Positions 2,112-2,899 of a DNA stretch of 64,000 bases are shown piece by piece. Location: NCBI GenBank assembly GCA_947168815.1, contig CAMVNG010000001.1:62001-126000 (forward strand), in the 5' to 3' direction. The notes under the pieces are model-generated. The model ran no database searches. It was not told the origin of the DNA and saw only the letters and a program-made list of their open reading frames with translations. The position numbers were made by a program, and so were the translations under genes. The DNA is from an uncultured bacterium (lineage in GTDB: Bacteria; Patescibacteriota; Gracilibacteria; Absconditabacterales; Absconditicoccaceae). Within the stretch, counting starts at the first letter, position 1, and each line of letters begins with the position of its first letter.

Positions 2112-2794
2112 AAAAAAAAGAGATAGATGATTAATCTACCTCAAATTCCCGTAAGAAATCGAGTCTATGTAGATGCCTTATGAAAGCTAAACAAGCTATT
2201 AACCTGAATAGTATCTCATGCTTTAGGCAATCCTAAAGAAAAGATCTCATGAGATAACAAATCTTAATAGATTTTATCTTGATTATTTTGACCAAGAGCA
2301 GGATAGTAAATCAAATAAGAACCACTCTTAAGAGATAAGAATATCCAACACTAAGAAGATTGAAATGCCTAATCCAATGTTTTCTAAGAATTGCTTCAAT
2401 GAACCTTAAATATACCATAATAGACTAAGAGTTGATTGAAGTAGGTAACAACAATACTCAAACTATTTTAAAACGAAATACCTAAGAATAAGAATGACAA
2501 AGAAGATACTTAGAATCGATTATCCGTTAAACTCATAACCATTTAAATTATAAGTCAGAAGACCTCGCCTTTAAAGGGAACTTCAAGGATAATTTCAACC
2601 TCAACTACCGCTCCTCTAGAATATTGCTAGACTAGAGACATTAATTAAATAAGTGGAAATCTTACTTAATAGTATAGAATGATTTGCACATTCAGCAAAG
2701 GTAATCAAAGCAAAAGAAGTACATTTCTCATTACATAGACTAACGTTAAAGATCTCTTCAGTTCCATCAAGAAGCTCTTATCTTTCCTGATGAC
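2112..2794 (-). ncRNA. Putative large structured non-coding RNA (about 680 nt)
   Basis: The minus strand has a strong promoter at 2829-2801 and an intrinsic terminator at 2142-2112 (GAGGTAGAT/ATCTATCTC followed by eight T). Between them I find no credible ORF in any frame with TGA read as glycine. The region is full of inverted repeats: a nested pair at about 2213-2256 (ATCTCATG...CATGAGAT enclosing CTTTAGG-CAAT-CCTAAAG), CTCTAG...CTAGAG near 2617-2638, and a 9-bp hairpin near the 5' end (2764-2793). This is the pattern of giant ornate bacterial RNAs such as OLE, GOLLD and ROOL, but I cannot match it to any of them. A degraded gene is the main alternative. Confidence 0.55.
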
Positions 2795-2800
2795 ATAATA

Positions 2801-2829
2801 ATTATACATCAAAAAAAATTAATTTGCAA
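2801..2829 (-). promoter_or_regulatory. Promoter of the large non-coding RNA
   Basis: On the minus strand TTGCAA (2829-2824) and TATAAT (2806-2801) are spaced by exactly 17 bp. The predicted transcription start is near 2794. Confidence 0.65.
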
Positions 2830-2899
2830 ATTTTTTATCACTTTTTTTATAAAATTAATAAATCTAGTTAAGAACTAATATTTCAGAACACAATTTTTT

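Follow-up and report, generated by a model that had tools for sequence, protein, structure and literature searches.

What is encoded by a stretch of chromosome that has a promoter at one end, a strong terminator at the other and no evident reading frame in between? The question is raised by positions 2112–2829, minus strand, of the window (the whole 64-kb stretch of DNA analysed here), for which a first-pass annotation had proposed a candidate new large structured RNA. That proposal is supported, with favourable outcomes of the Rfam, coding and covariation tests; a discrete transcript has not been shown. We consider it very likely (probability of about 0.87, covering the gene and the fold only) that 2112–2829 is a stand-alone gene for a structured noncoding RNA of ~683 nt that belongs to a lineage-restricted family new to Rfam. 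The limits of the gene, its noncoding nature, the fold, the homology among copies and selection on the fold are shown by sequence comparison, whereas transcription is only inferred because no RNA-seq data are available.

Gene limits and noncoding character

The promoter TTGCAA-N17-TATAAT and the strong terminator that the first-pass annotation reported on the minus strand both held (at 2829–2801 and, as a hairpin with a T-run, at 2142–2112, respectively). The extent of the gene, given there as 2112–2829, requires a small correction: the RNA likely runs from about 2794 to 2112, and 2795–2829 is the promoter. The features that delimit the gene are the following (types A and B are two subtypes of the family, see below).

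2112..2794 (-): predicted noncoding RNA, ~683 nt, supported by homology, covariation and the lack of ORFs; RNA nt i is window position 2795 - i
2824..2829 (-): -35 element TTGCAA, conserved in type A and type B copies
2801..2806 (-): -10 element TATAAT, separated from the -35 element by 17 nt
2112..2142 (-): terminator hairpin GAGGTAGA/TCTATCTC followed by a T-run; the stem covaries
2829..2878 (-): A-tract (AAAAAAAGTGATAAAAAA) and AACTAG/AACTRG-type box 5' of the -35 element, seen in upstream alignments

The A-tract and the AACTRG-type box are partly conserved and common to many copies; they might represent an UP element or a regulator site, a possibility inferred from the upstream alignments without functional data. 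When the promoter pattern was searched for in the same genome, 9 matches were obtained, 6 of which are members of the RNA family, with no matches in the control. The RNA would be driven by its own promoter and would end at the strong terminator.

The host appears to be a code-25 bacterium (TGA = Gly), an inference that rests solely on the open frames under table 25. The obvious rival explanation, that the locus specifies a short mRNA or is a pseudogene, is all but excluded. It can only point to the presence of ORFs of up to 68 aa, but these are no longer than those in shuffled sequences. With TGA read as Gly, the longest sense ORF of the window copy measures 61 aa, and under table 11 it measures 35 aa, against a shuffled median of 59 and a 95% point of 106; across 13 copies, the longest sense ORFs span 26–68 aa (TGA = Gly), inside the shuffled range, and the antisense ORFs 23–55 aa. 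There is no coding signal in these 13 sequences, none of which exceeds its own shuffled 95% point, so that the earlier statement that the region holds no credible frame stands. Furthermore, indels among the copies do not come in multiples of three, and compensatory changes predominate.

A fold shared by divergent copies

The window copy has homologues, detected by BLAST and with a covariance model, and a covarying fold well above chance. The 12 full-length copies, which are 57–90% identical, share a common fold: after a 5' hairpin, a long-range helix brings the two ends together around ~20 inner helices, and the terminator follows. In the window copy, the predicted elements are arranged as follows.

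2761..2794 (-): 5' hairpin GTCATCAGGAAA...CTTCTTGATGGAAC
2751..2758 (-): outer closing helix, 5' strand AAGAGATC, pairing with 2153–2160
2153..2160 (-): outer closing helix, 3' strand GATTTCTT
2729..2741 (-): long-range closing helix, 5' strand AGTCTATGTAATG, pairing with 2162–2175; compensated pairs, one of them significant in the R-scape-like test
2162..2175 (-): long-range closing helix, 3' strand CATCTACATAGACT
2718..2727 (-): second long-range helix, 5' strand, pairing with 2362–2370
2362..2370 (-): second long-range helix, 3' strand
2595..2715 (-): multi-branch domain, the most conserved part (model R1), with the near-invariant hairpin GAATG-UGCAAAU-CATTC
2382..2515 (-): long compound arm with numerous compensated pairs
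2212..2256 (-): nested hairpin TATCTCATG/CATGAGATA around CTTTAGG-ATTG-CCTAAAG (model R2), common to type B

The nested perfect hairpins, previously placed at 2213–2256, are among these elements.

The 12 full copies were aligned with MAFFT and folded with RNAalifold. On the uncorrected tool alignment, the fold has 174 pairs, and compensatory changes are seen at 86 of these. The 3' end of the L009 row was misaligned and was corrected by hand, with 4 loop bases dropped, after which the repeated fold comprises 218 pairs, 104 of them compensated, at a consensus energy of -247.5. This correction was guided by pairing and introduces a slight bias toward structure; however, 86 compensated pairs were already present before it. 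Structure-free evolution along the same tree from the same root gives an energy of -54±11 and 27±5 compensated pairs, and shuffled columns give -53±4 and 18±3, compared with -247.5 and 104 in the real alignment. The entire prediction was repeated on the null alignments, and the comparison is accordingly not circular.

The first-pass annotation had named covariation among homologues as one of the checks to be made, and under our own R-scape-like null the support is strong: 14 structure pairs, in local as well as long-range helices, reach E<=0.05, against 0–2 when the partners are slid. This count is partly circular because the structure came from the same alignment. In the strict all-pairs version of the test, only one pair passes, although 8 of the 10 strongest column pairs fall inside the structure. 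The power of covariation analysis is limited here, given that there are only 12 full copies, several of which are paralogues in one genome. Taken alone, the window copy has a modest fold z-score of -2.7 (20 shuffles).

Two loops of the window copy deserve comment. The apical loop UGCAAAU of the multi-branch domain is near-invariant, with a self-complementary UGCA in 11 of the 12 copies; it is a possible contact site that is no more than suggestive of multimers, in the absence of oligomerisation data, and the UGCA loop lacks covariation evidence precisely because it hardly varies. The contacts of OLE and GOLLD are marked by palindromic loops that switch from one copy to another, a signature that was sought among the present copies and not found. 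We also considered a pseudoknot in which TTTGC, where the R1 domain is entered, would pair with GCAAA in the apical loop, but dropped it, as it lacks covariation support and fails in some copies. Separately, the loop at 2279–2295 (RNA nt 500–516) could form its own small hairpin in most copies, with a sequence that differs strongly between them; it is possibly a variable spacer or a recognition element.

Copies, distribution and genomic setting

When the 718-bp stretch was used as the BLAST query against the window's own genome (G000, 1.29 Mb), five full type A copies were identified, the window copy included, the other four being 68–82% identical to it. A promoter-based search of the same genome uncovered a divergent type B member, for a total of six dispersed genes. 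A congener, G002, carries seven copies (six type A, one of them seemingly split across two contig ends, and one type B), so that the two best-assembled genomes of the genus have six to seven dispersed genes each. Another congener, G001, has at least one copy (one plus the tail of a second at a contig end), and G022, a genome from a sister genus, has two, namely one copy and the very divergent L029. The first-pass annotation addressed a single locus, and the presence of six genes in the genome, the helix joining the ends and the restriction to one lineage were not visible to it. The divergent members are the following.

L359 798-1494 (G000:C5 near 40.6 kb): type B relative, 697 nt, found via the promoter and the nested hairpin
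L376 1385-2108 (G002:C19): type B relative, 724 nt, found via the promoter and the nested hairpin
L029 1514-2212 (G022:C10): very divergent relative of ~699 nt, with the same promoter and 5' motif, the rest of the body being unalignable

The two type B genes are 68% identical and share 188 predicted pairs, 18 of them compensated and none broken; they can be aligned with type A at the nested hairpin, which lies in a collinear position (best E=4e-10). L029 has the same promoter, a GTCATCA hairpin, GAGATCTTTA and its own terminator, and its predicted fold includes its own long-range closing helix; no other full-length relative was found in the family.

Two covariance models were employed, R1 for the conserved multi-branch domain and R2 for the nested hairpin, the latter built with the type B member of G000 included; the R2 search also found the type B counterpart in G002:C19. 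No further credible member was found in 353 same-class genomes with R1, R2 and a motif pattern, or with R1 in 380 genomes sampled from the phylum. As far as the searched genomes go, the family is confined to one lineage; R1 is blind to type B and L029, and therefore, members in other genomes that are even more divergent may have escaped detection.

Several candidates were rejected in the course of these searches. L006, L010 and L011 are low-scoring BLAST matches to the promoter or the terminator alone and, on inspection, are not copies; L029 and L359, also first spotted via promoter-region matches, turned out to be divergent members. An R2 match in G345 (E=0.0028, 353 genomes searched) lies inside an apparent methyltransferase gene and was judged to be due to chance. 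The pattern scan of genome contigs was too degenerate, with at least 117 matches, mostly chance ones, one being a contig of the carrier G002. Among viral contigs, several patterns gave no matches and others only chance ones (L185-L196, L210-L329), with no promoter or matching hairpin near the motif and no significant model scores.

The copies sit between unrelated genes in varying orientation, with no shared neighbour that would hint at a partner; the flanks scanned, those of some copies only, encode host-type proteins (a UvrD helicase, an ABC transporter, a polysaccharide-synthesis protein and unassigned proteins). No match was found in 50,697 phage records, and this result, together with the host-type flanks, led us to reject a phage origin; plasmid records contained no match to the RNA either. 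The only tRNA in the 64-kb window is ~56 kb away from the RNA. At one locus, synteny is kept between pairs of copies from three species: L004 and L008 share their downstream flank, and L008 and L017 their upstream flank. The L008 and L017 RNAs are 88.3% identical, compared with 72.0% for the DNA of the neighbouring gene, and the three syntenic copies cluster in the tree with full support. Thus, at least part of the family represents old gene lineages; other copies are genome-specific duplicates.

These observations bear on the possibility that the RNA is a selfish mobile or repeat element, non-autonomous and aiding its own spread through its transcript without a gain for the host. In favour of this view are the dispersal of six to seven copies per genome, whose neighbours are unrelated and whose orientation varies, and the similarity between copies that ends close to the promoter and the terminator; multi-copy motifs that lack a consistent orientation are frequently regarded as mobile (PMC11109978). 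Against it are the pairwise synteny in three species and the higher conservation of the RNA relative to the adjacent gene, the retention of the fold in paralogues down to about 65% identity, the lack of a transposase in the scanned flanks and the fact that no shared terminal repeats were noticed. We regard a selfish element as unlikely; nevertheless, this and the regulatory RNA discussed below are the chief rivals that are not excluded.

Known large RNAs and possible function

Rfam contains no gathering-score match for the window copy or the loci of six other copies, and relaxed searches returned only chance-level matches to unrelated families. Identity with a known family would have refuted the original proposal, and its statement that none of the known giant RNAs could be matched holds. 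ROOL, GOLLD, OLE and HEARO are all represented in Rfam, and at these seven loci, their covariance models do not support membership. Phages and prophages carry the ROOL and GOLLD genes, frequently close to tRNA islands (PMC12286853); the present RNA does not show this setting, as far as the phage records, the window and the scanned flanks of some copies go. The present RNA does qualify as a large stand-alone structured RNA in the style of OLE, ROOL and GOLLD by its promoter and terminator signals and its covariation, with transcription inferred.

Similarly to the present RNA, ROOL is stand-alone, of similar size (659-nt example) and has an elaborate covarying fold without a known protein partner (PMC12286853), but it is phage-borne, whereas the present RNAs form a dispersed chromosomal family with no such links in the tested flanks and no Rfam match. 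GOLLD, likewise a large ornate orphan RNA, often exceeds 800 nt and is linked to phages or prophages (PMC12286853), in contrast to the present RNA, which also lacks an Rfam match. OLE is a large orphan bacterial RNA of ~600 nt (PMC9723947); the present RNA differs in having six to seven paralogues per genome, no conserved neighbour gene and no Rfam match. OLE also has genes for partner proteins, OapA among them, and the lack of a common neighbour gives no hint of such a partner here. The 520-nt lncRNA of Lactobacillus salivarius (PMC5643018), a line of work cited in the ROOL paper, is also long, lineage-restricted and of unknown function, but is megaplasmid-borne and was shown to be extremely abundant, whereas expression of the present RNA is inferred only. 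No description of the family was found in the open-access literature searched (most subscription papers were outside its scope). We conclude that this is a new family of large structured ncRNAs of the OLE/ROOL/GOLLD style, unrelated to these RNAs by the available tests; what is unusual about it is that its several genes are dispersed over the chromosome.

A catalytic RNA or a degenerate intron could be suspected from the size and the compact closed domain, but is very unlikely. There is no Rfam intron or ribozyme match at the window, the six other type A loci or the B and L029 loci; the conserved catalytic core expected of group I or group II introns is not indicated by any Rfam match, and the copies are intergenic, with their own promoter and terminator.

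The second rival that remains is that the paralogues are trans-acting RNAs that regulate by base pairing, or RNA or protein sponges, and differ in their targets. The paralogous RNAs, independently transcribed as judged by their signals, with variable loops between conserved stems, fit this scheme, and multi-copy sRNA families show such paralogy and variable loops between conserved stems. However, the present RNA is far bigger and more elaborately folded than typical sRNAs, has few long unpaired segments, and its most conserved loops are invariant between paralogues, which makes this explanation unlikely.

Under the preferred reading, that of a stand-alone structured RNA, the long-range helix just 5' of the terminator would close the multi-branched molecule into one domain, and the likeliest role of the folded RNA, an inferred one, is that of a particle or scaffold that self-associates or binds a protein, in the manner of OLE, ROOL and GOLLD; having several copies might provide dosage or specialised variants. 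OLE, ROOL and GOLLD form homomultimers, OLE being a dimer (PMC12286853). The particle or scaffold role is drawn by analogy, with no data on transcription, abundance, oligomerisation or protein binding, and we would put the odds slightly against it. A bolder version, in which the paralogous ~690-nt type A and type B RNAs co-assemble into a hetero-oligomeric RNA particle in this reduced-genome bacterium, is very unlikely; to our knowledge, there is no natural multi-gene RNA-only complex.

Few large structured bacterial RNAs of unknown function have been described, and three of these proved to be RNA-only complexes (PMC12286853). To these, the present results add a family that appears to be unrelated, from a lineage with reduced genomes, where six copies occupy ~4 kb of a 1.3-Mb genome. 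Lineage-restricted RNAs of this sort are overlooked when scans consider only Rfam or widespread motifs, and the 15–16 sequences in several subtypes are a ready set for asking what RNAs of this kind do.

Elsewhere in the window, two similar terminator-like stretches (GTTGAGATAATA[C/G]GGGTCAGTTTTTT), at 1150–1185 and 1813–1848, flank a small lipoprotein-like gene (1253–1807).
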